DNA from: Streptomyces sp. TRM68416
Lineage (GTDB): Bacteria; Actinomycetota; Actinomycetes; Streptomycetales; Streptomycetaceae
Direction: 5' to 3'
DNA length: 64,000 bases
NCBI RefSeq assembly: GCF_014596915.1
Contig: NZ_JACVWU010000004.1
Span: forward strand, 62,001-126,000
The notes under the pieces are model-generated. The model saw nothing but the letters and a program-made list of their open reading frames with translations. It was not told where the DNA came from and did no database searches. Below are positions 21,048 to 46,082 of this stretch, in pieces. Both the position numbers and the translations under genes were made by a program. Each line of letters starts with the position of its first letter. Position 1 is the stretch's first letter.

Positions 21048-21956
21048 GTGAACGAAACACAGCACCCCACCACCAGGCGAGACAGCTCCGTCACCGTGAT
21101 CGGGCTCGGCCCGATGGGCCAGGCGATGACTCGCACCCTCCTCACCGCCGGCCACCCGGTCACCGTCTGGAACCGCACCGCCGGCCGAGCAGATGGCCTC
21201 GTCGCCGCCGGAGCGACGCGGGCGGCGACACCCGGCGAGGCGGTCGAGGCCAGCGACCTCGTGATCCTCAGCCTCACCGACTACCAGGCGATGTACGACA
21301 TCCTCGACAGCGCGACCGCATCACTCGCCGGCCGGACGCTGGTCAACCTCAGCTCGGACACGCCCGACCGCACACGCAAGGCAGCAGCCTGGGCGGCGGG
21401 CCACGGCGCCGCCTTCCTCACCGGCGGTGTCATGGTCCCGGCGCCGATGGTCGGTACCGAAGAGGCATACGTCTACTACAGCGGCCCCGACGAAGTGATG
21501 GAGAACCACCGGGCCGCGTTGGCCCCACTCGGCACACCGAAGTATCTGGGCGCGGATCCGGGCCTCGCCCAGATGATGTACCAGGCCCAGCTCGCGGTGT
21601 TCCTCACCACCCTGTCCGCACTGATGCACGCCACCGCGATGCTGGGCGCCACCGGCATGACGGCCAAGGAAGCACTGCCGGAGCTGCTCTCCTCCGCCGA
21701 CTCGATCAGCGCCATCCTGAGCGCCGGCGAAGAGGCTCCCGGCGCCGCGCTGGACGCCGGTGAGCATCCCGGCGACCTCAGCACGGTCACCATGATGGGT
21801 GCGACGTCCGATCACATCGTCGAGACCAGCAGATCACTCGGCCTCGACCTCGCTCTCCCCCTGGCCGTGCAGGCCCACTACCGGCGCGCGATCGAGAACG
21901 GCCACGGCAGCGACAACTGGACCCGCATCATCGACAGCATCCGGGACCCGGACTGA
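21048..21956 (+). CDS. NADPH-dependent imine-reductase-like (6PGDH-fold) oxidoreductase
   Basis: 302 residues. SVTVIGLGPMGQAMTRTLLTAGHPVTVWNRTAGRAD is the NADP Rossmann site (R near residue 43 for the 2'-phosphate). NLSSDTPDRTRKAAAWA and FLTGGVMVPAPMVGTEEAYVYYSG belong to the imine reductase/beta-hydroxyacid dehydrogenase group. The all-helical domain starts GLAQMMYQAQLAVFLTTLSALMHA. The GTG at 21048 has GGAGG almost abutting it; no better start is obvious. Divergent from an HxlR regulator that probably controls it. The natural substrate cannot be told from sequence. Confidence 0.82.
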   Translation: MNETQHPTTRRDSSVTVIGLGPMGQAMTRTLLTAGHPVTVWNRTAGRADGLVAAGATRAATPGEAVEASDLVILSLTDYQAMYDILDSATASLAGRTLVNLSSDTPDRTRKAAAWAAGHGAAFLTGGVMVPAPMVGTEEAYVYYSGPDEVMENHRAALAPLGTPKYLGADPGLAQMMYQAQLAVFLTTLSALMHATAMLGATGMTAKEALPELLSSADSISAILSAGEEAPGAALDAGEHPGDLSTVTMMGATSDHIVETSRSLGLDLALPLAVQAHYRRAIENGHGSDNWTRIIDSIRDPD

Positions 21957-22002: not shown

Positions 22003-22641
22003 TCACGCGTACGCCGACGGCCCTTGCGGGCTGCCCGGGGTGCCCGGCGGTCCGCCCGCGGTGCGTGCCCTGCGGCCACGGGTCGTGAAACGGTAGAGCG
22101 CGACGAGCATCGTGGGTGTGGTGACCAGCGCGAACCCGCCGAACGGCAGCACCAGCAGGAGGATTGCGAGCACCGCGACGGCAATGAGTACTCCGCGCGC
22201 CGGGTCGCTGCCCACGACGAAGACCGCGGAGTCCGACTCCGGGGCGGGAAAGCCCCGCCCGGGCACCAGCCGCGCGTCGTGGACCTGCTCCGGTCGGCAC
22301 TCCGTGCCGTCGGGGAGCTCGATCACCATCTGGTCGCGGGGCGGCGCGACGCGGCGACCGGACTGTTCCGTCCCGCCGGCAGGCACGAACCGCCCGACGC
22401 AGTACTTCTTGTTCGACTTGGGATGCGTCCGCTCCTGGATCACGACCACCGAGCCTTCGACACCGCCCTCGCCCCGCGCTGCCCTGGCCCGCTCGGAGGC
22501 CTGGTCGACCGCGAGCACGGCCGTCCACACGGCGATTGCGCTGACGGCAGCACAGACCAGCCAGACCGTCAGGACGATCACCACGGACATCCCACTGTCC
22601 AACTGACCGGACGAACCTCGGCTCCGGCCCAGCTCCCTCAT
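22003..22641 (-). CDS. Hypothetical two-helix membrane protein
   Basis: 212 residues from ATG 22641. Transmembrane helices occupy about residues 16-42 (VVIVLTVWLVCAAVSAIAVW) and 150-180 (GVLIAVAVLAILLLVLPFGGF). A soluble extracytoplasmic segment lies between, containing GSVVVIQERTHPKSNKKYCVGRF, reminiscent of DUF3592-type loops. The C-terminus is Arg/Gly/Pro-rich. I do not recognise a specific family. It converges on the preceding reductase gene. Confidence 0.7.
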   Translation of the reverse strand: MRELGRSRGSSGQLDSGMSVVIVLTVWLVCAAVSAIAVWTAVLAVDQASERARAARGEGGVEGSVVVIQERTHPKSNKKYCVGRFVPAGGTEQSGRRVAPPRDQMVIELPDGTECRPEQVHDARLVPGRGFPAPESDSAVFVVGSDPARGVLIAVAVLAILLLVLPFGGFALVTTPTMLVALYRFTTRGRRARTAGGPPGTPGSPQGPSAYA

Positions 22642-22827
22642 GCCGCGCAACGTCCCCCCTCACGTGTGCGTGTCCCGCGCAGACTATCGCCCGAGCCGCG
22701 CACGGGGTGGTGGGGCCGATCTTGTCCGGGGTCGTACGGCCGGGCAGGCTGCCCGCCACAGCCTCGGTCATGGAGCTCGGCGATCAGCCCGTGCTCGCGT
22801 CAGCGGCGGAAGAGAGCATGGGCACCC

Positions 22828-23083: not shown

Positions 23084-23161
23084 AACCCCCGGGCCAATGA
23101 CCTGGGGGTTCGAAGTGGAGCGGGTGACGAGAATCGAACTCGCGCTCTCAGCTTGGGAAGC
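23084..23161. repeat. Distal attachment-site copy: terminator plus 3' half of tRNA-Gly
   Basis: 23116-23161 is identical over 46 nt to the 3' part (CCA end to anticodon stem) of the intact tRNA-Gly at 44379-44424, in the same orientation. It is preceded by a terminator hairpin (23084-23110, AACCCCC/GGGGGTT). Upstream sequence (GAGGGCACGC, CTAG, AACAAACAA) also matches that before the intact tRNA. Beyond 23161 homology stops, as expected for an att junction. It marks the left limit of the 21-kb island. Confidence 0.85.
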
Positions 23162-28559: not shown

Positions 28560-29780
28560 GTGGACAGCGCGGTGTACCGATTCGGGCAGTACGCGTTGGA
28601 TGCGGACCGCCGCCGACTCAGCCATGACGGGCAGCGGGTCGATGTCGAGCCCCAGGCGCTGGAACTCCTGTGCCACCTGGTCGAGCACCGCGGCCGCGTG
28701 GTGCCGGAAGACGAGCTGTGCGACAGGGTGGGGCACGGGCACGCGGTCAGCGGGGCCGCACTCGCCGCCGTACTACGGACGGCCCGTCTCGCGATCGGTG
28801 ACAGCGACACACGACAGCGGCTGATTCGTGCCGTGCGCCCACACGGCTATCGGTTCGTCGCGCAGACGACGGTGGTCTCCACCGCCCCGGCCGCCCCTCT
28901 CCCGGCCCTCGGGGGCCCGGCAGAGGCGGACGCGGACCACGAGGTCATCCGTTTCTGCCGGTCCGCCGACGGCACCCGCATCGCCTACGCGCTCACCGGC
29001 AAGGGTCCGCCCCTGGTGAAGACCGCCAACTGGCTGACCCACCTCGACCTCGACCGGACCAACCCGATGTGGACGCACTGGTTCGACGGTCTCACCCGCG
29101 GCCGGCAGCTCATCCGCTACGACGAGCGGGGCTGCGGCCTCTCCTCGTGGGACATGGGCAGCTTCACGCTCGACGACCTGGTCGCCGACCTCGATGCCGT
29201 GGCCGATGCCGTCGGCCTCGACCGCTTCCCTCTGCTCGGAGTGTCACAGGGCGGCGCGGTGGCGGTCGCCTACGCCGCGCTTCGCCCCGAACGGGTCAGT
29301 CATCTGATCCTCACCTCCGCCTATGCCCGTGGGCAGTTGACCCGTGCGGGCAGCAACGCCGAGCGCGATGCCGCCGAGGTCGACCTCGACATCGCCCGCG
29401 CCGGATGGCGTTCGCAGGACAGCAGCAGCAGCTTCCTGCGCTACTTCGCCTCCCAGTTCCTCGCCGACGCCACTCCTGCGGAGTGGGACGCGTTCGCCGC
29501 GTACCAGCGGCAGACGACCTCGCCCGCCAACGGCCTGCGCTTCCTGGAGGAGTTCACCCGCATCGACGTCTCGGGCGTCGCTCACGAGGTGACCTGCCCC
29601 ACGCTGATCATCCACTCCCGCGACGACGCGCGAGCCCCCGTCGCGCAGGCCCTGGAACTGGCCACGCTCATCCCCGACAGCCGGCTGGTTCTGCTCGAAG
29701 GCCGCAACCACCTGTTCACCGCCGACGACCCGGCCTGGCCCACCTTCCTCACCCACCTCTACAACTTCCTCTCCGAGTAG
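28560..29780 (+). CDS. Winged-helix DNA-binding domain fused to an alpha/beta hydrolase (copy 1)
   Basis: 406 residues. Residues 5-100 form an OmpR/PhoB-type winged helix: YRFGQYALDADRRRL, VDVEPQALELLCHLVEHRGRVV and DTRQRLIRAVRPHGYRFV. Residues about 125-405 are an alpha/beta hydrolase: RFCRSADGTRIAYALTGKGP, LIRYDERGCGLSSWD, PLLGVSQGGAVAVAYA (nucleophile Ser in G-x-S-x-G), CPTLIIHSRDD (Asp) and GRNHLFTADDP (His). A single-chain regulator that may hydrolyse or bind its own ligand. Start GTG 28560; no clear ribosome site precedes it (AT-rich GTTGTAAAGTTTTC). A close paralogue lies inverted at 31083-32315. Confidence 0.85.
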   Translation: MDSAVYRFGQYALDADRRRLSHDGQRVDVEPQALELLCHLVEHRGRVVPEDELCDRVGHGHAVSGAALAAVLRTARLAIGDSDTRQRLIRAVRPHGYRFVAQTTVVSTAPAAPLPALGGPAEADADHEVIRFCRSADGTRIAYALTGKGPPLVKTANWLTHLDLDRTNPMWTHWFDGLTRGRQLIRYDERGCGLSSWDMGSFTLDDLVADLDAVADAVGLDRFPLLGVSQGGAVAVAYAALRPERVSHLILTSAYARGQLTRAGSNAERDAAEVDLDIARAGWRSQDSSSSFLRYFASQFLADATPAEWDAFAAYQRQTTSPANGLRFLEEFTRIDVSGVAHEVTCPTLIIHSRDDARAPVAQALELATLIPDSRLVLLEGRNHLFTADDPAWPTFLTHLYNFLSE

Positions 29781-30106
29781 TCCGCCCCGGCAGACGGAAC
29801 GACTGCGACGACGGGAGGGCCCCGCGGGGCACGGTGCACAGCCGTGGCGGCCGGGCAAACGCACCTGCGCTGCCACAGCCGATGCGGCTTGGCCGTGGCG
29901 GCACCGGGAGGACATGAGCGACGGGCGAGGGCCCACCGGCACAGCCTCGGCCGGTGGACCCGCGACGGCTGACAGGAGTAGACGCACCTCGTGTGTCCTG
30001 GTTCCCCCGTGTTGTTCTGACCGGACGTCCGTGAAGTCGTCAGCCGACTTCACGCACGTCGACGGTCCCGTCGGGCCACCCGCCGGCCTGCGGAAACGGT
30101 GTACGA
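29781..30106. other. Intergenic region between convergent genes (326 bp)
   Basis: Separates the convergent hydrolase fusion and the small secreted-protein gene. No coding frame stands out. GAAGTCGTCAGCCGACTTC (30032-30050) is a perfect dyad with 8-bp arms around CAG and could terminate transcription. Confidence 0.5.
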
Positions 30107-30571
30107 CTAGCCGATGACGATGTCGCAGTCGGCCGTCCCGCGGGCGGCGATGGTGGCGAAGTCCGCCTGGACGAAGGGGTCGTACGCCGCCGCGGTGAGG
30201 GTGCGGGTCGACTTGCGGGGCACCCACTTCTTGCCCGTCGAGTGCCTGACGTCCGACGCGTCCCACGACAGGTCACAGACCCAGTGGACGTTGCGGCCCG
30301 CGGGCCGCGGGTTGGTCGCGTTCGCGTCGATCCTCCAGTTGCCGTCCGCGTTCACGGTGAACGTGATGTTCCCCCGCACCTTGTGGCTGCTGTCGCTCGT
30401 CTTGAACTGGACGGACATGCCGTCCGCCGCGACGTGCTTGGTGGTGGCGTTGGCGTGTGCGGGAACCGTTCCCAGCAGCAGGGAGCCCAGCCCCGCCCCC
30501 GTCGCGATCAGCAGCGCCAGCCCCCGCCGAGTCCGGGCCTGACCGGACGTCCTGGTGTTGTCGAGTCGCAT
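30107..30571 (-). CDS. Small secreted protein of unknown function
   Basis: 154 residues. A signal peptide runs through RRGLALLIATGAGLGSLLLGTVPAHA. The mature part is a compact beta-rich domain with ITFTVNADGNWRIDANATNPRPAGRNVHWVCDLSWD and a second Cys in TADCDIVIG, probably one disulfide. No known family is recognised. GAAGGAC lies upstream of ATG 30571. It sits between the two inverted winged-helix/hydrolase genes, whose ligand or target it might concern (inference only). Confidence 0.75.
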   Translation of the reverse strand: MRLDNTRTSGQARTRRGLALLIATGAGLGSLLLGTVPAHANATTKHVAADGMSVQFKTSDSSHKVRGNITFTVNADGNWRIDANATNPRPAGRNVHWVCDLSWDASDVRHSTGKKWVPRKSTRTLTAAAYDPFVQADFATIAARGTADCDIVIG

Positions 30572-31048
30572 CTTCGTGTCCTTCTCTCGCGTTGTCCTGC
30601 GTCTGAGGTGAGTGCCGGCCTGGGAGAGATGCCTTCACGACTGCCCCTCCGCCCGGCACAGTTCAAGCATCGGGCTCGTCGACGGCCAAGACTTGGTGGA
30701 CGTCTGAGGCTCGCATGAGGGCGGGCTGAGGAAGGGCTGAGGGGCTGGCGCTCAGTCGGTGAGCCGGGTTGACGGGGAGCGGGTGCGTTCGCCGGGACCG
30801 GTGGACCGGACGCAGACGGCGGCGTGCGAGGCCGGCGAAATGAGGCCCACGGGCTGGTCGGCACATGGTGCCGCAGCCGTCCGCAGGTTGCCGACAGCCT
30901 GCCCGGGGAATCGAGCCGGGTAACTCCGGGGGCCTCCGGGGGCGGCCCACGTACGGCGCGGGCAGACTCGAAAGACGCCGTCATCGAGGAAGAACACGGC
31001 CGCCGATCCCACGGCCCGCAGATGGCCGATCGGTCCCCCAGCCCCGCG
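30572..31048. other. Intergenic region (477 bp)
   Basis: Contains the promoter of the small secreted-protein gene at its left end. I see no coding frame with acceptable codon bias, no tRNA and no strong dyads until the terminator at 31049. Confidence 0.45.
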
Positions 31049-31076
31049 ACTCCTCAGCTCTCGGCTGCTGAGGAGT
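31049..31076 (-). terminator. Terminator of the inverted winged-helix/hydrolase gene
   Basis: ACTCCTCAGC and GCTGAGGAGT form a perfect 10-bp stem with an 8-nt loop, 6 bp past the stop codon of the minus-strand gene at 31083. Confidence 0.7.
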
Positions 31077-31082
31077 GGTGGC

Positions 31083-32315
31083 TCACTCGGTCAGGAAGGC
31101 ATCGACGTGCGACAGGAACTCGTCCCAGGCCGGTTCGTGCTCGGTGAGCAGATGACTGCGGCTCTTGAGCAGGACCAGTCGGCTGTCGGGAATGAGCGCG
31201 GCCAGTTCATTGGCCTGGGAGACCGGTACCCGCTCGTCGTCGCGGGAGTGGAGGATCAGCGTCGGACAGACCACCCTGTGGGCGATGTCGGACACGTCGA
31301 TCCGGGCGAACTCCTCAAGGAATCGAACCCCGTTGGACGGCGAGGTCGTGCGCCGCTGAAAGGCGCTGAACTCGTCCCAGTTCTCCGGTGTGTCATCGGG
31401 CAGGAACTGGGAGGCGAAGACCCGCAGAAACCGGGGGTCCTGATGCATCCATCCCACCCGGGCCACATCCAGGTCGAGGGCCGCATCGGCGTCTTCGGCC
31501 TCGCTTCGGGCCCGGACCTGCCGCCCCCGGGCGTAGGCCCCGGCGAGGATCAGCCGGCTGACCCGCTCCGGATGGCGTACGGCATAGGCCACCGCCACCG
31601 CGCCGCCCTGCGACACCCCGAGCAGAGGGAACCTGTCGAGCCTCACGGCCTCGACCACGGTCTCCAGATCGTCGACCCAGTCCTCGAACGTGAAGCGCGG
31701 CACCACCCAGTCGGAGAGGCCGCACCCGCGCTCGTCGTAGCGGATCAGCCGGTGGTTTCGGGCGAGCCCGCGCAGCCAGTGCGACCACACCGGAGTCGTC
31801 CACTCCAGGTCGAGATGGGACATCCAGTTGGCCGCCTTGAGCAGGGGCGGGCCCGAGCCGACGGCGGCATAGGCGATGCGCGTGCCGTCACCGGCCCTGC
31901 AGAACCGGATGGTCTGACGGTCGGCACCGCTCGGCCCGTCGGCTGTCGTCCCGACGACTCCGGTTCCCCGGTCGGTACTCGCGGGCGTGGCGTCACCGAC
32001 GGTTGTCACCGGCGCCACGAACTGACAGCCCCGCCGGTGCACGGTACGGATCAGCTGCTGTCGGCTGCCGGTGTCGCCCACGGCCAGACGCGCAGTCCGC
32101 AGCGCCGTGGTGAGGGCGGCCTCGCTCACGAAGCGGTCACCCCACACCTCGTCGAGCAACTCGCTCTTCGGAACCACCCGGTCCCGGTGCTGGACCAGGT
32201 GGCACAGCAGGTCCAGGGCCCGGGGCTCGACGTGGACCGGCTCGCCGGTCCGACGGAGCTGCCGCCGAGAGAGATCCAGCTCGAACTCTCCGAAGCGATA
32301 CTTGTCCCCCTTCAC
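31083..32315 (-). CDS. Winged-helix DNA-binding domain fused to an alpha/beta hydrolase (copy 2)
   Basis: 410 residues from GTG 32315, chosen because it aligns with the first residue of the paralogue at 28560; an in-frame GTG at 32351 would add 12 residues. Winged helix: YRFGEFELDLSRRQLRRTGEPVHVEPRALDLLCHLVQHRDRVV...LIRTVHRRGCQFV. Hydrolase: RFCRAGDGTRIAYAAVGSGPP, LIRYDERGCGLSDW, PLLGVSQGGAVAVAYA (Ser), CPTLILHSRDDERVP (Asp) and SRSHLLTEHEP (His). The two copies match closely throughout and lie in opposite orientation around the small secreted-protein gene, suggesting duplication within the island. Confidence 0.85.
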   Translation of the reverse strand: MKGDKYRFGEFELDLSRRQLRRTGEPVHVEPRALDLLCHLVQHRDRVVPKSELLDEVWGDRFVSEAALTTALRTARLAVGDTGSRQQLIRTVHRRGCQFVAPVTTVGDATPASTDRGTGVVGTTADGPSGADRQTIRFCRAGDGTRIAYAAVGSGPPLLKAANWMSHLDLEWTTPVWSHWLRGLARNHRLIRYDERGCGLSDWVVPRFTFEDWVDDLETVVEAVRLDRFPLLGVSQGGAVAVAYAVRHPERVSRLILAGAYARGRQVRARSEAEDADAALDLDVARVGWMHQDPRFLRVFASQFLPDDTPENWDEFSAFQRRTTSPSNGVRFLEEFARIDVSDIAHRVVCPTLILHSRDDERVPVSQANELAALIPDSRLVLLKSRSHLLTEHEPAWDEFLSHVDAFLTE

Positions 32316-32584
32316 CTTCGCAGCGTACAACTCCTGTCTGTAGGCGTACACATGAGCGATATTCGGGTATGTCCGTCATGGTGGTCGCGCAGGTCCGAGC
32401 CGTTGCAGGTAGCGGATTCGTGCCTGGTGCGGGGTCAGGTATCCGATGGCCGAACGGATCCGGTCGGTCCCGGTTGCAACATTGCACGATCCATCCGAAT
32501 ACGTCCTGCCGGGCTTGCGCCGAAACATGAGCCGGCCCGCCCGACACTCTGCCGGATGTCCAACTAGGCCAAAGGTGGCCGGAA

Positions 32585-33954: not shown

Positions 33955-34338
33955 GTGGCCGCGGCTCAATGGGAAGTGGTTCTCGTCGGGGAGGTCGCGG
34001 CGTGGTTCGAGGCACTGGCCGAAGAGGACTGGGACAGCTCTGAACAGGTAGAAGACGCCATCGACATGTTGGCGGCAACGGGCCCGACGCTCGGCCGTCC
34101 GCTGGTAGACCGGATCAAGGGTGCTGAGAACCATCACCTGAAGGAGCTGAGGCCGGGATCATCCGGGGGCAGTGAGATCCGCATCCTCTTCGCCTTCGAT
34201 CCGGTGCGCCGGGCAGTCCTGCTGGTAGCCGGCGACAAAGCTGGAAACTGGCAGCGCTGGTACGACATCAACATTCCGCTCGCTGAGGAGCGGTACCAGG
34301 CACATCTGGCTGATCTTGAAACCAGGGAGTACGAATGA
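33955..34338 (+). CDS. higB: HigB/RelE-like type II toxin (Gp49 family)
   Basis: 127 residues from GTG 33955. WFEALAEEDWDSSEQVEDAIDMLAATGPTLGRPLVDRIKGAENHHLKELRP is the Gp49/HigB-like fold. SEIRILFAFDPVRRAVLLVAGDKAGNW holds the conserved R-I-L-F-A-F-D strand and Lys. No ribosome site precedes the start; AT-rich GTTAACTCTTGCATTAACAT sits immediately upstream and probably combines operator and promoter of a leaderless transcript. Overlaps the antitoxin start (ATGA). Confidence 0.88.
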   Translation: MAAAQWEVVLVGEVAAWFEALAEEDWDSSEQVEDAIDMLAATGPTLGRPLVDRIKGAENHHLKELRPGSSGGSEIRILFAFDPVRRAVLLVAGDKAGNWQRWYDINIPLAEERYQAHLADLETREYE

Positions 34339-34673
34339 GCACCGTGAGCTGGGAGGAGACCAAGCGCAAGGCGCGCGAGCGGCGTGCGGCCTCGGGGTTG
34401 CCGGTGCGGTCGCATCAGGAGAAGCAAGCGGCCATGGACCGGTTGACCGCCGAAGTGCGCGCTCACAAGCTTGCGGAGGTCAGGCGCGAACAGGCGTTGA
34501 CTCAGCGCCAAGTGGCCGCGTCAATGGGGGTCTCGGCACCTCGGGTATCCGCCATCGAGCACGGTGAGCTGGATCGCGCGGAGGTCGCGACTCTCCGGGC
34601 CTACGTGGAAGCGCTCGGCGGTCGACTGCGCGTAGTCGCAGACTTCGGGGACGCGGAGTACACCGTCGCCTGA
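34335..34673 (+). CDS. higA: HigA-type antitoxin with XRE helix-turn-helix
   Basis: 112 residues. KLAEVRREQALTQRQVAASMGVSAPRVSAIEHGELDRAEVATLRAYVEALGGRLRVVADFGD is an XRE helix-turn-helix as in antitoxins placed downstream of HigB/Gp49 toxins. The N-terminal 45 residues are charged and helical. Translationally coupled to higB. The pair is the only cargo between two att copies. Confidence 0.88.
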   Translation: MSTVSWEETKRKARERRAASGLPVRSHQEKQAAMDRLTAEVRAHKLAEVRREQALTQRQVAASMGVSAPRVSAIEHGELDRAEVATLRAYVEALGGRLRVVADFGDAEYTVA

Positions 34674-34702: not shown

Positions 34703-34780
34703 AAGGCCCAGGTCTTTGACCTGGGCCTTCTTCGCGGAGCGGGTGACGAGAATCGAACTCGCGCTCTCAGCTTGGGAAGC
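34703..34780. repeat. Internal attachment-site copy: perfect terminator plus tRNA-Gly 3' half
   Basis: The terminator AAGGCCCAGGT / ACCTGGGCCTT (34703-34729, perfect 11-bp stem) precedes 34736-34780. That segment is identical to the tRNA from GGAGCGGGTGACGAG to the anticodon stem (45 nt). Homology to the tRNA ends at 34780 exactly as at 23161. Confidence 0.88.
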
Positions 34781-35017: not shown

Positions 35018-35710
35018 CTACTGGCCGTCCTCTTCAGCCCCCGGGTTGAGCGTTTCCGAGGCTGCTGCCCAGTCTTCAGGGTGCGAGACCGGCAGGAGCC
35101 GAAATTGCTGCTGGTGCGTGCTGTCATACGGTGTGACGGCATTGGACTTCATTCGAGTGTGGTCGCGGATGAGCAGCATCTCGATCACACGCGCAGCGGT
35201 CTGCAGGTCCTCTGCCGTCGTGCCGGTTGGAATGGCCGTAGGAGACAGGAGGGCACCGTTCGTATCGCGGTCAACGTAGAAACCTCGCTGTTTGGCAAGG
35301 TTGGCCTCGCCAGCTGCAACTGCGGCCTCCTCCTGCCGTTTTCTGTGGGCTTCCTCCCACGCTGCGTAGTCAGATCCCAGATCGGGCATGGCGCTGTAGT
35401 CACCCCAGAACTCATCGAGTTCGTCGCCGAAAACGATGGCTTGAAGGTACTTCTTCGTGTGGCTTCGTCCGTGCTGCGCCAGCGCATCCACCGTGCGAGA
35501 CGTTTCATCTTCTTGGTTCCAGGCGTCTTGGAAGGCGTCGTAGATCCAGAGCGCTTTACCGAGCTCCTCCTGCGCCAGGACGGTGAGGGATCGTGCCCGC
35601 CCGTAGGACCTTGCGGACAGCAGGGTGTGCGCGTCGGTGATCAGTGAAGAGGCGTTGTCCATCAGCGCTTTCCAGAACTCGCGCGCCTGCACCGGGCTCA
35701 TTTCGACCAT
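35018..35710 (-). CDS. AbiV family abortive-infection protein
   Basis: 230 residues from ATG 35710; an ATG at 35701 is an alternative. ALMDNASSLITDAHTLLSARSYGRARSLTVLAQEELGKALWIYDAF is the AbiV signature, with the A-x-x-EELGKA motif preceded by SYGRA. HTKKYLQAIVF supplies another conserved His region. AbiV proteins stop phage multiplication, in Lactococcus by interfering with translation of phage late functions. The C-terminal half (VIEMLLIRDHTRMKSNAVTPYDS) is less conserved. It is first inside the att copy at 34703. Confidence 0.85.
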   Translation of the reverse strand: MVEMSPVQAREFWKALMDNASSLITDAHTLLSARSYGRARSLTVLAQEELGKALWIYDAFQDAWNQEDETSRTVDALAQHGRSHTKKYLQAIVFGDELDEFWGDYSAMPDLGSDYAAWEEAHRKRQEEAAVAAGEANLAKQRGFYVDRDTNGALLSPTAIPTGTTAEDLQTAARVIEMLLIRDHTRMKSNAVTPYDSTHQQQFRLLPVSHPEDWAAASETLNPGAEEDGQ

Positions 35711-36118
35711 CACCTCAGTGTGCCCTGCCTTCCCATCCGGCCCCATGGCATCGGGCCACGCTGATATCGAAGCCCGTGAAGCCCCGCGCCACGCTGATGC
35801 ACAGGTGCGGCACCGCATCAAGGAGAGAGACGGGCACCCCTTGCCCGTGACCTGCGGCTTCGCTAACCGAGCTGGAGGCCACGAATGTGCGTTTCGGCCC
35901 TCTTGGGGACCGTGGCTGACCCCTGAATCTGGCACGACTGTGGCACGGGCCGATCGTACGTCAGGTGCGTGCCTCCCCCCAGGCATCGGTCAGTGAACGT
36001 CATTGGGTTGCATCACGGCCTGGGACGCCACCGCGACGCACGCCGACTTACGCTGTCGACAGCGAGCGGCGCGCCACGGACGGGGTAGTTCCGCCCAACA
36101 GATGGGCAAAGAGCCCCC
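35711..36118. other. Intergenic region (408 bp)
   Basis: Divergent promoter space between abiV and the small membrane protein. It includes CTGGCACGACTGTGGCACG (35932-35950), another echo of the att-flank motif. No coding frame with proper start and bias is seen. Confidence 0.45.
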
Positions 36119-37859: not shown

Positions 37860-40553
37860 TTGCTTCACACTCGCATGACGCGTGCACGGCTTTACGTACT
37901 CGTGGACTCGTTCGAATCTGACGTACGGCAAATGATTCTTCGGTTCATCCTCGACCACATGGGTGAGACCGAGGCTCTGGGTGACAGCTACGCGCGTGCA
38001 GCTGAACGCCGTCACGCTGACGCCAGCGACGACGAGCTATCCATTGTCGAATACCTCGACATGCGTGAAGCGTACGACATCCTGAACCGTCATCGGGAAG
38101 CACTCCCTGTGGAGCTTGCCCGGGAATTGCGTCTCGGCACGCCAAGGATGGACACCCTAGTACCGATTCGCAACCGCGTCATGCACGGACGTCCTCTGCA
38201 AGCTGGTGACGCAGAGAAGGCGGTAAGTGCATGTCGAGAATTCAAGAGCCGATTTTGGCCGACAATGCGCGACACCTTGGACAGGTTGAGTGCTGAACCG
38301 GAGTGGGAGCCAGCGTTTAACGGCGTAGATCGGCGCTACTCTGACCGGATTCTCCACAACCTTCCGCCGTTCGATTACGACGATACCGGCCTTATTGGAA
38401 GGTCTCAGTCGTGTAATGCCATCGTGAAACACCTCTTGAGGCGCCGTGAGCCAATGATCACTATCACGGGGGAAGGTGGAATCGGCAAGACGGCGCTCGC
38501 TTCCGATGTGGCTTATTCACTCCTTGATAATCCGGATTCGCCTTACGAATGCATTCTTTGGACGTCTTTGAAGACCGAGCGGCTAACGGCTAACGGAGTC
38601 GTCGAGATTGCGGGCGCAGTGCGCGATATTACAGGCGCAACTCAGAGCTTGGGTAAGGTCCTAGCAGACGACTTCAAGGGTGGCGCTGAAGAGCTGGCCG
38701 AAGCTCTGCAAGGAATTGAGACACTACTCATCATCGACAATCTCGAAACCGTCAGCGGTAGCGAGATCGTGACGCTGTATGAAACGCTCCCAGATAACGT
38801 CACGTATCTCATGACTAGCAGGATCGGCGTGGGACAAATTGAGCGCCGTATCCCTCTTCCTCCTTTGGAGAAGAAAGACGCGCAGACGCTTTTTCGTTCG
38901 TTTGCTAGAGTGCGCGGGGGGCGGGCGGAATTCTTGGCAAGCCTGAAGCAGGAAACTGTTGAGCAGATCGTCACTCGGCTTCGCTTCAGCCCTTTGGCTA
39001 TTCGATGGTACGTCCTTTCCGTTGAATCTGGGCGGGAACCTCATCCCACTTTGACCGATCAGGACGAGTTGATCGACTTCTGCGTCCGGTCGGTATTTGA
39101 CGCCCTGAGTGAAACACCCAAAGCTATCCTGTCTGTCCTCTATGCTCTCGATCGATCTTCGACATTCGACGAACTGGCAGTCCTGACCGACTCCCCAATC
39201 GATGCCTTGAATCTAGCGGTCAAGGAACTGAGTGCGGGTTCGCTCGTGAGTCAGAAACCCGACCCCACTGACGAGTTGATCTCGCGAGTTCAGATAACTG
39301 AAGCGGCTCAACACTTCCTGCGTCGAGTCGCGCCGCCGCCAAAAGCGGACATCAGTAGGACACTGCTACGAGAGCAAGAATTTAAACGCTCAGAGGAGCA
39401 GCGTCGTGCCGACGAGAGCAAGCGTCAACTCGCCCCCAACGTTGTCAGGATTCGTTCGCCGCATGATGAGCCCACGGCGCATCTTCTGCGGCTCGCCTTG
39501 GCGCAATCACGCGCAGGGTCGATCGAGCGTGCTCAGAGTTACCTGACGCGAGCCCGGGCGCTGAATCCAGAGTTCTGGGAGGTTGATCGTGTGGAAGCCT
39601 TCATCCTTTCCCAGAATGATCAGATCGACCAGGCTAGCTCCCTTTACCGCTCGGCCCTGCGTAAAGCTGACGATGCCGGTAAGGCCGTCATTTCCTACTA
39701 CTTTGCGGGGCATCTTGCTGGCCGCGGTCACGACGTGGATGCCGCTCTACCTTTGGCCAAGTCGGCGCATGAGCACTTTCAGACCGCTGACACCGCCCAG
39801 TTGCTGGGAAAAATCAATCTGTGGGCCCGCAATTACGAAGAGTCCCAGGTTCACCTTGAGTGGGCCCTAGAAAACATGACTGGTCGAGGGCGACTCCGAC
39901 TGATTATCCTGACCAGTCTGGTCGACTCTTGGCGCCGGTGGTCTGAGTCGCTACTTGAAGATGATCGACGGCCCGTAGAAGCCGCCCATAAGGCGTCAGC
40001 AGGGTTCTCTCAGGGCATCAAGGAACTCGACTCGGGGGCATGGGATCAACGACTAGCTGAAATGCTTCTTGAGAGTGCGAATGCTTTCCTGCGGTCGATT
40101 GGCGAGCTCGGATTGTTCCCTCCAAATTTCGAGAATGATGCAGTCCGTATCCTGAAGGGAGTGAAGCGTCATGCTGTCCTTTTTGAGCGCTGCGCTGCAT
40201 GGCGTCATTTCCCCGGGCGGGTTGGCAGGTTGTATCGCCTGGCGGGCATCAGTGAGGAAGTCTCAAGCCTTTGTGAAAACTTGGTAAATGTGGCCAAGCC
40301 GAAACAAGGCGGCAGTTCGGATGTGTCGCCCCGAGGGATCGTCAAGGCCTGGCGCGGAACGTACGGTTTCATCTCGCATCCCGACTATCCCAGCGATGTC
40401 TTCTTCCCTGGAGCGGCAGTACAAGAAGGGCACGGCGTGAAATGGGACTCTCTTAACCCTGTCGGCATGCACGTCGTTTTTGAAGTCGACGAGCATGGCA
40501 AAGGCGACCGTCCGCGCGCCAACTACGTATCGCCCATCTCCGTAGACGAGTAG
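37860..40553 (+). CDS. HEPN-like/STAND NTPase with TPR region and C-terminal cold-shock domain
   Basis: 897 residues of an unusual architecture. Residues 1-150 are all-helical with LVPIRNRVMHG, an R104-x4-H109 motif as in HEPN RNases. A STAND/NB-ARC ATPase follows: MITITGEGGIGKTAL (P-loop 204-211), TLLIIDNLE (Walker B, D293), YLMTSRIG (sensor) and RFSPLAIRWYVL (G/S-x-P motif), then a winged-helix-like region to about 480. Residues about 520-720 contain TPR-like helices (LALAQSRAGSIERAQSYLTRARALNPEFWEVDRVEA). Residues about 825-893 are a cold-shock fold: RGIVKAWRGTYGFISHPDYPSDVFFPGAA...VVFEVDEHGKGDRPRANYV. Expected mode: the TPR/CSD senses a nucleic acid or protein, the NTPase oligomerises, the HEPN cleaves RNA. 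Codon usage is less GC-biased than flanking host genes. Confidence 0.85.
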   Translation: MLHTRMTRARLYVLVDSFESDVRQMILRFILDHMGETEALGDSYARAAERRHADASDDELSIVEYLDMREAYDILNRHREALPVELARELRLGTPRMDTLVPIRNRVMHGRPLQAGDAEKAVSACREFKSRFWPTMRDTLDRLSAEPEWEPAFNGVDRRYSDRILHNLPPFDYDDTGLIGRSQSCNAIVKHLLRRREPMITITGEGGIGKTALASDVAYSLLDNPDSPYECILWTSLKTERLTANGVVEIAGAVRDITGATQSLGKVLADDFKGGAEELAEALQGIETLLIIDNLETVSGSEIVTLYETLPDNVTYLMTSRIGVGQIERRIPLPPLEKKDAQTLFRSFARVRGGRAEFLASLKQETVEQIVTRLRFSPLAIRWYVLSVESGREPHPTLTDQDELIDFCVRSVFDALSETPKAILSVLYALDRSSTFDELAVLTDSPIDALNLAVKELSAGSLVSQKPDPTDELISRVQITEAAQHFLRRVAPPPKADISRTLLREQEFKRSEEQRRADESKRQLAPNVVRIRSPHDEPTAHLLRLALAQSRAGSIERAQSYLTRARALNPEFWEVDRVEAFILSQNDQIDQASSLYRSALRKADDAGKAVISYYFAGHLAGRGHDVDAALPLAKSAHEHFQTADTAQLLGKINLWARNYEESQVHLEWALENMTGRGRLRLIILTSLVDSWRRWSESLLEDDRRPVEAAHKASAGFSQGIKELDSGAWDQRLAEMLLESANAFLRSIGELGLFPPNFENDAVRILKGVKRHAVLFERCAAWRHFPGRVGRLYRLAGISEEVSSLCENLVNVAKPKQGGSSDVSPRGIVKAWRGTYGFISHPDYPSDVFFPGAAVQEGHGVKWDSLNPVGMHVVFEVDEHGKGDRPRANYVSPISVDE

Positions 40554-41047
40554 GCCATTAGAGCGAGGTCGGCGGAGCGGCTTTGGGGTGGCGCTGCTTT
40601 GGCGCGAGTGATCATGTCCCCGTAAGCTTGCGGCGCGTCGGGCAGTCTGTGGACCTGCCCGGTAAAGCACGAGGTTGGGGCCATGATCTTCGAGGCTCGC
40701 GCCAAAGTGGCTCCGTAAAGCCGTGGAGCCGACCGCCCCAGCCACGACGTAACCCCTTCTCTGGCATCAGGTGGCTGATTGCTGTGTGCGCGGCACGGGC
40801 GCCGGCCGGGCTGGAGCGGGACGAAGGCAGGAGCGCAGGCCCGGCCGGGGGCCGGGCCGCGCGCGGGGAGCGGAGCGAGCCGCCTTGAACCCGTAGAGAA
40901 AGTTGTAACTCAGTCGGATGCGGATAGCGGCGGCCTCCCCCGGTGCGGGGAGACGAGCGACCTGGTTAGATCCCGACCCACTTGAGATCGAACGTCGATA
41001 GCCTGTCAGCCACACTGGTGAAAGTGCGGGGCAAGAGGGGGCTGCCT
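40554..41047. other. Non-coding region with strong GC hairpins (494 bp)
   Basis: No convincing reading frame. 40838-40858 is a perfect 9-bp stem with a GGG loop (GGCCCGGCC / GGCCGGGCC), embedded in GGGCTGGAGCGGGACGAAGG and GGGGAGCGGAGCGAGC purine-rich repeats (40798-40884). It may be a terminator complex, a structured RNA, or the promoter/leader of the EACC1-caspase operon. AAGAGGGGG at 41032-41040 is that operon's ribosome site. Confidence 0.5.
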
Positions 41048-41425
41048 GTGCGGGTGCGTCTGAGTTTCCAAGGTGTGGACATGCCGGAGGAGGAGCTGCG
41101 GTCGCTTCACCAGTGGCTGCTGGCGGATCCGTCCGCCCGCCGCTGTGCGCGGCCGCGTCTTGACTCCTCGCGTTCTTTGCCACCTGGAGCGCAGGGAGAC
41201 GTGATCGACCTCGTCTCGCTGATCGTCGGCAGCGGTTTCAGCGCTGCATCTCTGGCCGTGTCCCTGGCTGGTTGGCGGGCTACCCGTCCGCAGAATCCGA
41301 CGGTCACTCTGGACCGCCCGGACGGGGGCAGCATCACCATCTCGGCGTCCTCGCCCGATGAAGTGCGGCGTTTCATCGAGGAACTGAGCGCAGACGCGGT
41401 GGACGGCGATGACCACTCCGCCTGA
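41048..41425 (+). CDS. EACC1 (effector-associated constant component 1) protein
   Basis: 125 residues from GTG 41048 (GAGGGGG six bases upstream). ELRSLHQWLLADPSARR, GDVIDLVSLIVGSGFSAASLAVSLAGWRATRPQNPTVTLDRPDGGSITISASSPDEVRRFIEEL gives the standard EACC1 layout: an N-terminal helix-turn, one transmembrane helix (about residues 60-82) and a C-terminal beta-strand domain. EACC1 is a constant partner of caspase-like and other effectors in actinobacterial NTP-dependent conflict systems. It overlaps the caspase gene by 17 bp, so the two are co-translated. Probably anchors or holds the effector at the membrane. Confidence 0.82.
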   Translation: MRVRLSFQGVDMPEEELRSLHQWLLADPSARRCARPRLDSSRSLPPGAQGDVIDLVSLIVGSGFSAASLAVSLAGWRATRPQNPTVTLDRPDGGSITISASSPDEVRRFIEELSADAVDGDDHSA

Positions 41426-43211
41426 CCCATCTGCATCACGAGCCGTCTTCATCGGTGCCGGCAGCTACGAGACGCTTGACGACTTACCAGCCGCGGAGCG
41501 TAGCGCCCAGGCCCTCGCCACACTCTTCACTCAACCACATACCTGGGCCCTGCCAGCCGACCATTGTCGGGTAGTGATCAATCCTCAGACCCCTCGTCAA
41601 CTGTCTAAACCCGTGGCCGATGCGGCGCAGGACGCTACAGACGCGCTGATTGTCTACTACGTGGGTCACGGACTCATCGAGTCGCGTACCGGCCAACTGT
41701 GCCTCGCGGTGGGTGACAGCGATCGAGCATCGGTGCACGACACAGCGGCGCCATTCGAATGGATTCGGCGCTCGATCGAGCACAGCCCCGCAGTTCGCAA
41801 GATCATCATCGTTGACTGCTGTTACAGCGCCCGGGCCTTCGGTGTGCAGGCTGCCGAGGTTGTCCTGGAGGTGGAGGGCACCTATCTGCTAGCTGCGTCC
41901 GCCGAGAATTCGGTTGCTCTCGCCCCTCCCGGAGAGCAGTACACGGCGTTCACGGGAGAACTGATCAGGCTCATAGACGATGGGGTCCTCGATGGTGGTG
42001 AATTCCTCGACCTGGACACGATCTACAGGAAGCTACGCCTAGAACTCAGCATCAAGGCCAGGCCGGAGCCGCATAGGCTGTGCCGCAACCACCTCGGCGG
42101 TGTTGCCTTCGTGCGCAACACAGCCTACGAGCCTCCGTCGGCACCGCGGTCCGACTGGAGGTCATGGAGCGCCGCCCAGCCAGCCGGTGGGGCCGCGGCG
42201 GGACCCACTGAGTCTGAGCCCTACGTCCGTCTCGCGAGTCTTCGCAGCCTGCTTGACCAACTGATCCAGCAGGTCTCACCTACGCACAGCCTCGCTGACA
42301 CGCTTCAGGCCATCACCGATGGAGTGGTGGCGGGCTTGGGCTATGAGTTGGTAGCCCTCAACCTAGTCCGGCCGGACGGAGACTTGGTCGTCGCAGCTTT
42401 GGCTGGCAACGCCGCGGCAGAAGCTCTAATGACGGGCAGGGTCGGTTCCCGGGCCGCATGGGAGCGCCGCCTTTCCATGGGGGAAGCGTGGGGGACGTTG
42501 CGGTTCATCCCGCACACGGAAGGGTGGGTGCTCGACAGCGACGACGTGCCTCAGTGGAAATCTGAAGGGCCCGAACCACAACACAGCAATGGATGGCACC
42601 CTGATGACCGCCTGTTCGCTCCCATGTACTCCGCTGGTGGCAAGGATTTCGGAGACCTCGTCGGTGTTATATCGGTGGACCAGCCGCCCAACGGTCGTCG
42701 CCCGGGTGCATGGGGGCGCGAGGCGCTGCAGGTGTACGCAGCTCACGCCGCGGTTGCGATCAGTAACGCCCGGCTGAGAGCGAACATGCAGCGTGCGCTT
42801 GTCCGCCTCGAACGGGAGCAGCAAGCGCTGCGCGCGAGCGAGGAGTCCTTCCGGCAGGCCTTTGAATACGCGCCGTCAGGCATGGCGATCGCAGAAATGG
42901 GCGGTGATCAGCACGGAAGGATTCTGCGTACGAATGATGCACTGTGCCGGATGCTGGGAAGACCTGCTGCCGACATGCGCCGGTACTCCTTTTCTGACCT
43001 AGTCCATCCCGAGGACGTCGGCACCCTCCTGCGCACGTCCGCCGAAGGTGGCAGAGCGGAGGTGAGGCTTTGCCGCAGGGACCGCACGTATGTGCTGGTG
43101 TCGATGCGCAACAGCGTCGTCGCTGACAGTGCTTCCGGACCGCGGTTCCTACTGGTGCATATCCAAGACCTAGAGGGACCCTCAACGCGCCCTGTCAGTG
43201 ACCAGCACTGA
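41409..43211 (+). CDS. Caspase-like protease with GAF and PAS sensor domains
   Basis: 600 residues. Residues 1-240 are a caspase/peptidase C14 domain: RAVFIGAGSYETLDDLPAAERSA, ALIVYYVGHGLIE (catalytic H87), KIIIVDCCYSARAF (D-C-C, nucleophile C138) and YLLAASAEN. Residues about 270-460 are GAF-like (LDQLIQQVSPTHSLADTLQAITDGVVAGLGYELVALNLV...GVISVDQP...VYAAHAAVAISNARL). A coiled linker (VRLEREQQALRASEESF) joins a PAS domain (480-595: AFEYAPSGMAIAEMGGDQHGRILRTNDALCRMLG, VHPEDV). The sensory domains imply ligand- or redox-triggered proteolysis leading to dormancy or death. A PAS domain C-terminal to a caspase is unusual. Confidence 0.88.
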   Translation: MTTPPDPSASRAVFIGAGSYETLDDLPAAERSAQALATLFTQPHTWALPADHCRVVINPQTPRQLSKPVADAAQDATDALIVYYVGHGLIESRTGQLCLAVGDSDRASVHDTAAPFEWIRRSIEHSPAVRKIIIVDCCYSARAFGVQAAEVVLEVEGTYLLAASAENSVALAPPGEQYTAFTGELIRLIDDGVLDGGEFLDLDTIYRKLRLELSIKARPEPHRLCRNHLGGVAFVRNTAYEPPSAPRSDWRSWSAAQPAGGAAAGPTESEPYVRLASLRSLLDQLIQQVSPTHSLADTLQAITDGVVAGLGYELVALNLVRPDGDLVVAALAGNAAAEALMTGRVGSRAAWERRLSMGEAWGTLRFIPHTEGWVLDSDDVPQWKSEGPEPQHSNGWHPDDRLFAPMYSAGGKDFGDLVGVISVDQPPNGRRPGAWGREALQVYAAHAAVAISNARLRANMQRALVRLEREQQALRASEESFRQAFEYAPSGMAIAEMGGDQHGRILRTNDALCRMLGRPAADMRRYSFSDLVHPEDVGTLLRTSAEGGRAEVRLCRRDRTYVLVSMRNSVVADSASGPRFLLVHIQDLEGPSTRPVSDQH

Positions 43212-43325
43212 TGCGAGCTGACTGATAGGGCGCGGACACAGACTCTGAAGGTGTGTGTCACACCCAAACGTAGGGCTTGAAGTGGTGTGCGCAGGCAGGG
43301 AGTTCCATGCCTTGGCGGTGGGCTA

Positions 43326-44135
43326 GGGTCTGTTGTGAAAGTGCTGGTCACAGCCACTCGTTGATGGCTGCGACCAGCATGGTCGCTTCGTAGCGGACGG
43401 CGAGTTTGTCGTACCGAGTGGCCACGGCCCGATGGCGCTTGAGTCGGTTGATCCCGCATTCGACCGCGTGCCGCTGCTTGTAGTCGTCCTTGTCGAACTT
43501 CGGCGGCCGTCCGCCGCGCGAGCCGCGCTTGAGGCGGTTGCGGACCCGGTCCGCCGGAACCGGGATGGTGGCTTTGATCCCGCGTCTGCGCAGGTAGGAG
43601 CGGTTGCTGCGGGAGTCGTACGCCTTGTCGGCCCGGACCCGGTCCGGACACCTGCGGGGCCTGCCGAGCCCCAGCCTCGGCACTCGGATGGCTTCCAGGA
43701 CCGGCACGACGAAGATCCCGCCGGGCGGCTCCTTCTGGAGGTCCCCTTTTTTGCCGCTCCGGCGGCGTGCTGGTGGGCCCGGCAGACGGTGGAGTCGACG
43801 TTGACCTCCCAGGTAATCAGGCCCTTCGCGTCCGCCTCGGCCTGGAGCTGCGTGAGGATCCGCGCCCAGGTGCCATCCCGCTGCCAGCGCCGGAACAGGT
43901 CATAGACCCGGTCCCACGACCCATACCGTTCGGGCACGTCCCGCCACGGAGCACCGGTCCGGGTCCGCCACCGTATGCCGTCTATCAGCTGCCGCCGCGT
44001 CCACACCTGCGGCCGGCCCGGCTTGATGCCCGTCGGCAGCAGAGGCTCAAGCCGGGCCCACTGGCCGTTCGTCAGATCCCCACGTCCCACAGGACGTGAT
44101 CATCACCGAACAAGATCCACTTTCGCAACGGACCC
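43326..44135. mobile_element. IS5-family insertion sequence
   Basis: Imperfect 18-bp terminal repeats: left GGGTCTGTTGTGAAAGTG (43326-43343); right, read inward, GGGTCCGTTGCGAAAGTG (44118-44135). CTAG at both outer edges (43323-43326 and 44135-44138) may be the target duplication, partly overlapping the repeat ends. Length is about 810 bp, with one transposase spanning nearly all of it. Inserted between the caspase gene and tRNA-Gly inside the island. Confidence 0.82.
43348..44090 (-). CDS. IS5-family transposase made by -1 ribosomal frameshifting
   Basis: The first frame starts at GTG 44090: [52 protein letters not shown], then [21 protein letters not shown] (first catalytic Asp). At AAAAAAG (43747-43753) a -1 slip enters the second frame, which continues [49 protein letters not shown] (second Asp) and [22 protein letters not shown] (Glu), ending at 43348. 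The slippery heptamer and intact DDE residues indicate a functional programmed frameshift, as in other IS5-group elements. Confidence 0.85.
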
Positions 44136-44985: not shown

Positions 44986-45561
44986 GTGCTTCTCTCAGAC
45001 AAGGACATCCGGGCCGAGATCGACGCCGGGCGGGTGCGGATCGATCCCTACGACGAATCCATGGTGCAGCCGTCCAGCATCGACGTGCGGCTGGACCGGT
45101 ACTTCCGGGTGTTCGAGAACCACCGGTACCCGCACATCGACCCGTCGATCGAGCAGGCCGACCTGACGCGGCTGGTGGAGCCGGAGGGCGACGAGCCCTT
45201 CATCCTCCACCCCGGTGAGTTCGTCCTCGCCTCGACGTACGAGGTCATCTCCCTGCCCGACGATCTCGCCTCGCGCCTCGAGGGCAAGAGCTCGCTCGGG
45301 CGGCTCGGGCTTGTCACCCACTCCACCGCCGGGTTCATCGACCCCGGTTTCTCCGGGCACGTGACGCTGGAGCTCAGCAATCTCGCCACGCTGCCCATCA
45401 AGCTGTGGCCGGGCATGAAGATCGGGCAGCTGTGCATGTTCCGGCTCAGCTCGCCCGCCGAGTTCCCCTACGGCAGCGAGCGGTACGGCTCCCGGTACCA
45501 GGGGCAGCGCGGGCCCACCGCCTCCCGCTCCTTCCTCAACTTCCATCGGACCCAGGTGTGA
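44986..45561 (+). CDS. dcd: dCTP deaminase
   Basis: 191 residues from GTG 44986. Begins [55 protein letters not shown] holds the nucleotide-binding Ser/Arg, [19 protein letters not shown] the catalytic Glu region and GQLCMFRL...YGSRYQGQ the C-terminal lid. Converts dCTP to dUTP (or dUMP in bifunctional forms) for dTTP synthesis. Immediately followed by the phosphoribosyltransferase gene. Confidence 0.96.
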
Positions 45562-45572
45562 GTGGCGCGGGC

Positions 45573-46082
45573 ATGAGTGACGTACGCGAGAACCTGACCT
45601 ACGAGCGGTTCGGCACCGCCGTCCGTGAGCTCGCCCAGACCATCGCCGACGACGGCTACGAGCCCGACATCGTGCTCTCCATCGCCCGCGGCGGGGTCTT
45701 CGTCGCCGGCGGGCTCGCCTACGCCCTCGACTGCAAGAACATCCACCTCGTGAACGTGGAGTTCTACACGGGCGTCGGCACCACCCTCGAAATGCCCGTC
45801 ATGCTCGCGCCCGTCCCCAACGCCATCGACTTCTCCGACAAGAAGGTCCTGATCACCGACGACGTCGCCGACACCGGCAAGACGCTCAAGCTGGTGCACG
45901 ACTTCTGCCTCGACCACGTCGCCGAGGTCCGCTCCGCCGTGATCTACGAGAAGTCGCACTCGCTGGTGAAGTGCGAGTACGTGTGGAAGCGCACCGATGA
46001 CTGGATCAACTTCCCGTGGAGCGTGCTGCCTCCGGTGAGCAAGTCGGGTGAGGCGCCCAAGGAGAACAAGGAAGCGCTCTGA
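45573..46082 (+). CDS. Phosphoribosyltransferase (PRT type I fold)
   Basis: 169 residues from ATG 45573; a GTG at 45558 overlapping the dcd stop is an alternative start. PDIVLSIARGGVFVAGGLAYAL precedes KKVLITDDVADTGKTLKLVHDF, the PRPP-binding motif (D-D-V-A-D-T-G-K-T). VWKRTDDWINFPWSV is typical of the xanthine/hypoxanthine-PRT-like group. Probably a purine salvage enzyme or regulator; base specificity not assigned. Confidence 0.9.
   Translation: MSDVRENLTYERFGTAVRELAQTIADDGYEPDIVLSIARGGVFVAGGLAYALDCKNIHLVNVEFYTGVGTTLEMPVMLAPVPNAIDFSDKKVLITDDVADTGKTLKLVHDFCLDHVAEVRSAVIYEKSHSLVKCEYVWKRTDDWINFPWSVLPPVSKSGEAPKENKEAL

Follow-up and report, generated by a model that had tools for sequence, protein, structure and literature searches.

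A HEPN-STAND-TPR protein ending in a cold-shock domain, carried as island cargo in Streptomyces, is a candidate single-gene anti-phage sensor

Introduction

Bacterial NLR-like proteins of the Avs and bNACHT kinds are built from a STAND switch, an effector and a sensor arm, and the ligands of Avs proteins are phage proteins. Here we describe a gene whose product has the same build with other effector and sensor arms. It lies at 37860-40553 on the forward strand of a 64,000-nucleotide stretch of Streptomyces sp. TRM68416 (contig NZ_JACVWU010000004.1), which as a whole we call the window. The gene encodes an N-terminal HEPN domain, a STAND NTPase, TPR-like repeats and a C-terminal cold-shock domain (CSD).

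This architecture was described in silico by Anantharaman et al. 2013 (PMC3710099), who list "STAND-ATPase, TPR, S1" as a fusion of Swt1-like HEPN domains and mention bacterial HEPN-STAND proteins whose C-terminal OB folds are cold-shock-like; statements on this and the other papers cited refer to the passages considered here. Npun_F6454, MED222_16016, Desac_1927 and gi 229028907 from that paper resemble the window protein in having an N-terminal HEPN, a STAND domain, TPRs and a C-terminal OB fold. The likeness is one of description, and the proteins are presumably related in sequence as well. The motif of the Swt1-like fusions is stated to be 'mostly active'. Because of the 2013 listing the HEPN-STAND-TPR-CSD architecture is not new, and a sequence-only reading of the window, which knew of no described system with a CSD at the sensor end, does not hold on that point. 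A literature search, with subscription papers outside its scope, found no experiment on this architecture. What we add beyond PMC3710099 is the island context, the losses of the CSD and a slot at the end of a prophage.

The TIR-STAND-TPR protein of the P4 satellite hotspot (Rousset et al. 2022, PMC9122126) offers a precedent: it is like the window protein in its N-terminal effector, central STAND domain and C-terminal TPRs and in being cargo of a mobile element. It has a TIR domain where the window protein has HEPN, and the passages considered name no CSD. They report forms in which SIR2 or a nuclease is swapped in, name no HEPN swap, and propose the TPRs as the sensor. CoCoNuT type IV restriction systems (PMC11090510) bring CSD-like OB folds together with HEPN RNases, type III-A having both, and are predicted to target RNA. 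These are multi-gene systems with a McrB-like GTPase and coiled coils and, unlike the window protein, carry CSD and HEPN on separate proteins; a McrB-like GTPase or McrC partner had no match in the window protein or in the 10 neighbouring open reading frames (ORFs) scanned.

Kaur et al. 2020 (PMC7159879) also name cold-shock domains among those that bind RNA in other conflict systems, and one class of retrons, which are anti-phage systems, has cold-shock effectors (PMC13405049). No reverse transcriptase gene was found in the 10 neighbouring ORFs scanned. The PADLOC family CSD_V, which we take to stand for retron type V, matches the CSDs of two relatives of the window protein (L076 and L033) at 3e-5 to 4e-5. 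CSD retrons need a reverse transcriptase and multicopy single-stranded DNA, and their chain is not known to contain STAND or HEPN.

Results

The window protein joins HEPN, STAND, TPR and cold-shock domains

The gene and its parts are as follows.

37860-40553, forward strand: HEPN-STAND-TPR-CSD gene, 897 amino acids from TTG, or 892 from the alternative ATG at 37875
37875-38309, forward strand: HEPN domain, residues 6-150
38169-38186, forward strand: HEPN catalytic motif R104-N-R-V-M-H109, with R and H invariant in 60 and in 38 aligned members
38385-39329, forward strand: STAND/NB-ARC NTPase with helical part, residues 176-490
38469-38492, forward strand: P-loop (Walker A) GEGGIGKT, residues 204-211, with G204, G206, G207, G209, K210 and T211 invariant
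38721-38738, forward strand: Walker B strand ending in D293, with D293 and N294 invariant
39450-40295, forward strand: TPR-like helical repeats, residues 531-812
40329-40535, forward strand: cold-shock domain, residues 824-892

The ORF, its strand and its length agree exactly with the sequence-only reading, and the same genome has one full-length copy of the gene. Translation starts either at TTG 37860 or at ATG 37875. By eye, a Shine-Dalgarno-like GAGGGGG lies 4 nucleotides 5' of the TTG; the ATG, equivalent to Met6, is the start in several homologues. Conservation was read from two alignments. Alignment A1 holds 60 rows of the 64 dereplicated full-length proteins, the late-starting P0048, P0049, P0066 and P0069 being omitted, and the HEPN alignment A2 holds 38 rows, without L015 and L035, whose N-termini are odd or missing. 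Invariant in A1 are R104, H109, G204, K210, T211, D293, G826, F837 and F874.

The proposed R104-x4-H109 HEPN N-terminus is borne out by conservation, profile searches and an AlphaFold2 model. Modelled alone, the domain is a predicted helical bundle, as in the HEPN superfamily, with a mean predicted local distance difference test score of 93.1, and its motif has the R-x4-6-H form of the Swt1-like HEPN superfamily. Pfam HEPN_Swt1 matches 28/38 family members at E<=0.1; the window's own HEPN gives E 0.0081 and the whole protein E 0.11, both below the cut-off. In set 1 the motif is present in 116/121 proteins, and in set 2, with a looser pattern, in 120/120. The five set-1 exceptions lack N-terminal sequence: three begin within the motif, one downstream of it, and P0079 (named partial) has an unlike start. 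Foldseek with the HEPN domain alone returned no significant match, and the HEPN profile found none among PDB sequences (one match, E 3.9). The PADLOC family PDC-M34B, a name that presumably denotes a phage-defence candidate, matches the HEPN part at 1.7e-4 and that of an E. coli relative at 5.9e-10.

The STAND NTPase is complete, as had been read from the sequence: GEGGIGKT at 204-211 and a Walker B D293-N-L-E are present, and Pfam NB-ARC, the fold of STAND NTPases, matches residues 183-382 above its cut-off (E 1.7e-7). Walker A in the form GxxxxGK[TS] occurs in all members of three sets (121, 40 and 120 proteins); a strict P-loop pattern missed 3/40 and 6/120, and all nine carry GxxxxGKT. The Pfam scan of the protein found no TIR domain, the N-terminus being HEPN. 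The TPR-like repeats are likewise supported, TPR_19 exceeding its Pfam cut-off at 552-605.

At the C-terminus the model has five strands (825-831, 835-840, 843-850, 871-876 and 886-892), which form the five-stranded OB fold of a CSD and agree with the cold-shock fold proposed earlier. Pfam CSD matches the single protein at 825-890 with E 0.0048 and 17.2 bits against a cut-off of 27. Among solved CSDs, the family CSD profile finds those of UNR/CSDE1 (1.8e-8 and 1.1e-7), and it also matches YB-1 and CspA. Core aromatics at the positions that we take to be RNP1 and RNP2 are among the most conserved of the domain and form its predicted aromatic nucleic-acid face (Y/F835 and F837 in 60/60, F848 and F849 in 59/60), and W831 is found in 37/60. 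The RNP2 histidine position is Pro in the window protein (H 34/60, P 25/60). In two relatives, L018 (ORF residues 822-941) and L021 (828-965), the C-terminus carries a tandem pair of cold-shock-like stretches.

The family is large and has members without the cold-shock domain

A first search scored 7,995 candidates and gave 283 homologues at E<=1e-3, of which 120 were listed, and a profile of 12 distant members gave 941 matches at E<=1e-20 among 7,997 scored, again with 120 listed. Homologues at 89-91% come from Streptomyces. The number of homologues together with the conserved motifs rules out chance or artefact. The family thus observed is large and spans several phyla, with a near-universal R-x4-H motif and P-loop. 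Members ending in a CSD come from Actinomycetota, Chloroflexota, Planctomycetota, Pseudomonadota (gamma and alpha) and Bacillota and, by eye, Verrucomicrobiota.

The domains diverge at different rates. Among the 25 relatives of the 35-45% identity band, mean identity to the query is 0.49 for HEPN, 0.58 for the nucleotide-binding domain, 0.42 for the N-terminal TPRs, 0.22 for the C-terminal TPRs and 0.32 for the CSD. Of the four identity bands, three have their greatest divergence in the TPR stretch 691-812; the band of the 3 closest relatives shows lower identity in the CSD (0.55) than in the C-terminal TPRs (0.60).

The HEPN-STAND core gave a tree of 40 rows, 29 with a CSD and 11 without, a distribution that needs three changes. 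This fits a CSD that is ancestral and was lost three times, or one gain and two losses. The CSD-less rows comprise a gammaproteobacterial/Desulfovibrio branch, a Nocardia/Prescottella/Microbacterium branch and one Melainabacteria row, and retain the HEPN motif, STAND and TPR. The tree is midpoint-rooted, with four long rows of unsure place, and omits L020 and L035 (truncated) and L040 and L043 (not family). CSD status rests on the family profile for 27 rows and on inspection by eye for L034 and L076, the latter confirmed by Pfam (E 1.1e-4). No separate cold-shock gene was found near the CSD-less relatives in ORFs of >=70 amino acids at E<=0.01. Since that limit would miss genes of CspA size, 2,245 stop-to-stop frames (>=45 amino acids) from 12 CSD-less loci were also compared with the family CSD profile, and no such gene was found at E<=1.

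The gene is island cargo

The gene is held between an intact tRNA gene and a copy of its end.

34736-34780, forward strand: copy of the tRNA-Gly(CCC) 3' end, 45 bp, identity 100%, att-like left border of the gene-bearing segment
44379-44452, reverse strand: intact tRNA-Gly(CCC), right border of the segment
33591-33638, forward strand: further partial tRNA-Gly copy, 91.7% over 48 bp
23116-23161, forward strand: further partial tRNA-Gly copy, 100% over 46 bp, the outermost seen in the window
13863-16190 in each of the loci L143, L144 and L145: CSD-less E. coli relative, between intE and icd

Base composition sets the gene apart, with a GC content at third codon positions of 0.61 against 0.88 (21048-21956), 0.88 (22003-22650) and 0.86 (45405-46082); the region's other ORFs have intermediate or higher values. 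The spread of the family is patchy. It occurs in 5/295 genomes of the genus, the own genome included (E<=1e-60), the other four carriers being one at 67% identity and three at about 30%. With a single DNA query from Shewanella we found relatives in 13 of 5,426 E. coli genomes, a number to be taken as a minimum. In the three examined of these 13 the CSD-less relative sits at the end of a prophage, between intE and icd. Prophage-end slots often hold superinfection-exclusion genes. No phage-borne copy was found in INPHARED by tblastn; viral contigs of IMG/VR contain 3 distinct family loci, and 4/11 matched plasmid records cover 69-70% of the query.

We found partial tRNA repeats at 5/43 family loci (5/8 of the tRNAs found) versus 1/20 control regions (1/8 tRNAs) taken from five genomes of the genus; this excess is suggestive and not decisive. 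The 3' end of the tRNA faces the gene in all 8 tRNA loci and in the window. The gene is flanked by the tRNA on one side and the repeat on the other in the window and in 4/5 repeat-bearing loci, the tRNA being the same tRNA-Gly in L001, tRNA-Val in L002, tRNA-Ser in L003 and tRNA-Thr in L032; in L004 it lies just outside, and L005, L011 and L031 have a tRNA without a repeat.

The partial copies of tRNA-Gly(CCC) form an array over 23116-44452. By eye, a hairpin-like sequence stands beside each copy, and beside most in relatives, the pattern that integrations one after another would leave. A toxin-antitoxin-like pair lies in the segment 33591-34736, which measures no more than about 1.1 kb. The same tRNA was inspected in 10 other genomes of the genus: eight have strong partial copies, G020 a weak one and G006 none. 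The arrays of those eight carry other cargo, which is mixed and includes a pSAM2-type RepSA. An array dedicated to defence was considered and rejected, with 69 PADLOC families in 124 array genes versus 72 in 124 control genes (E<=1e-10, controls drawn from 297 genes), a count that is only crude because it is of families listed (first 25) and not of proteins matched. Of 136 genes called, 124 entered the array count: the 10 from the array-less G006 and 2 genes spanning a seam were set aside.

No neighbouring gene recurs widely

In an all-against-all comparison of ORFs from 39 loci and the window, with flanks of up to 10 kb and several contigs short (L018 and L024 under 5 kb), no neighbour recurs widely; the widest other cluster, the gene itself and its antisense ORFs being excluded, is found in 6 loci. 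The surroundings in the window contain the following.

40982-43211, forward strand: EACC1 and caspase-GAF-PAS two-gene conflict system, directly downstream, its EACC1 ORF beginning 429 bp downstream on the same strand
35018-35860, reverse strand: AbiV-type HEPN gene in the same segment (Pfam HEPN_AbiV, 1.5e-40)
about 34036-34673, forward strand: pair of Gp49-family toxin, which we take to be HigB-like, and helix-turn-helix antitoxin, between two tRNA-Gly repeats
43323-44090, reverse strand: IS4/5-type transposase (DUF4096), adjoining the tRNA-Gly
28626-32250: inverted repeat of about 1.1 kb, 74% identity, joining ORFs 28560-29780 (forward) and 31083-32351 (reverse), the latter a winged helix-turn-helix and alpha/beta-hydrolase protein

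The scan of ten window ORFs turned up no integrase.

Discussion

We give a probability of about 0.6 to the reading that the gene encodes a single-gene, NLR-like anti-phage sensor, an abortive-infection RNase that cuts RNA upon infection. The sequence-only reading had also pointed this way, and its four domains and its defence STAND-HEPN RNase remain the best-supported interpretation, without its claim that no such system had been described. By analogy with Apaf-1 and plant NLRs, the NB-ARC domain would at rest be held closed by the TPR arm. The TPR/CSD arm would then bind a ligand made during infection: the variable face of the TPRs may take up a phage protein, the aromatics of the CSD single-stranded RNA or DNA, or both may occur. 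ATP-driven oligomerisation would pair the HEPN domains as the dimers that HEPN RNases require; host or phage RNA would then be cut at the R104/H109 sites so brought together, leading to dormancy or death.

Which part of the arm senses infection is a separate question. It is possible, and we put it forward tentatively, that the CSD is the actual sensor: its tip would bind single-stranded RNA or DNA exposed by the phage, open the STAND switch and so pair the RNA-cutting HEPN domains, and the branches that have no tip would have swapped to a protein trigger, a scheme that we hold as a whole with equal reserve. Just as tentative is the same STAND-HEPN machine with a phage protein read by the TPR face and a CSD that feeds RNA substrate or anchors the protein to RNA or ribosomes. 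Since 11/40 members are without a CSD and the C-terminal TPRs diverge faster, sensing could fall to the TPRs, with the CSD clamping substrate or RNA; the CSD-less relatives retain HEPN motif, STAND and TPR, residues 691-812 are the most divergent stretch in three of four bands, and the conserved features of the CSD are generic RNP aromatics. The TPRs are also the sensor proposed for TIR-STAND-TPR (PMC9122126). Against this, the CSD diverges nearly as fast as the TPRs, and faster in the closest band, and 29/40 tree members keep it. It also stands at the C-terminal end, which is the usual position of a STAND sensor. To our knowledge, bacterial NLR-like sensors with known ligands read phage proteins. 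A variable C-terminal arm fits a sensor, and constant aromatics fit generic single-strand binding.

Other readings are less probable. CSDs are classic cold-shock RNA chaperones, and some relatives are named 'LuxR family transcriptional regulator, glucitol operon activator', as would suit an RNA-binding regulator of cold or translation stress in the host with no role in defence; such a regulator is improbable given the patchy presence (5/295 and at least 13/5,426), the deviant codon use, the tRNA bracket and prophage-end location, and the want of widely recurring neighbours. We also consider it quite improbable that the HEPN domain has no catalytic activity and serves as a scaffold for RNA binding or dimerisation: PMC3710099 does list some inactive HEPN domains in the Swt1 family, but here the R and H of the motif are invariant in both the 60- and the 38-sequence alignments. 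The gene shares its segment with AbiV and the EACC1-caspase pair, whose first ORF follows on the same strand, and might form one system with either. This is very improbable, as neither neighbour is recurrent among the 39 loci and PMC7159879 describes EACC1-caspase as a separate system of two genes.

With a likely RNase effector and an RNA-binding tip, this widespread single-gene family would offer a simple counterpart, in bacteria, of the innate immunity that senses nucleic acids. The family has a tip-minus member in E. coli and tip-plus members in actinobacteria, so that the two forms could be compared directly in laboratory hosts.
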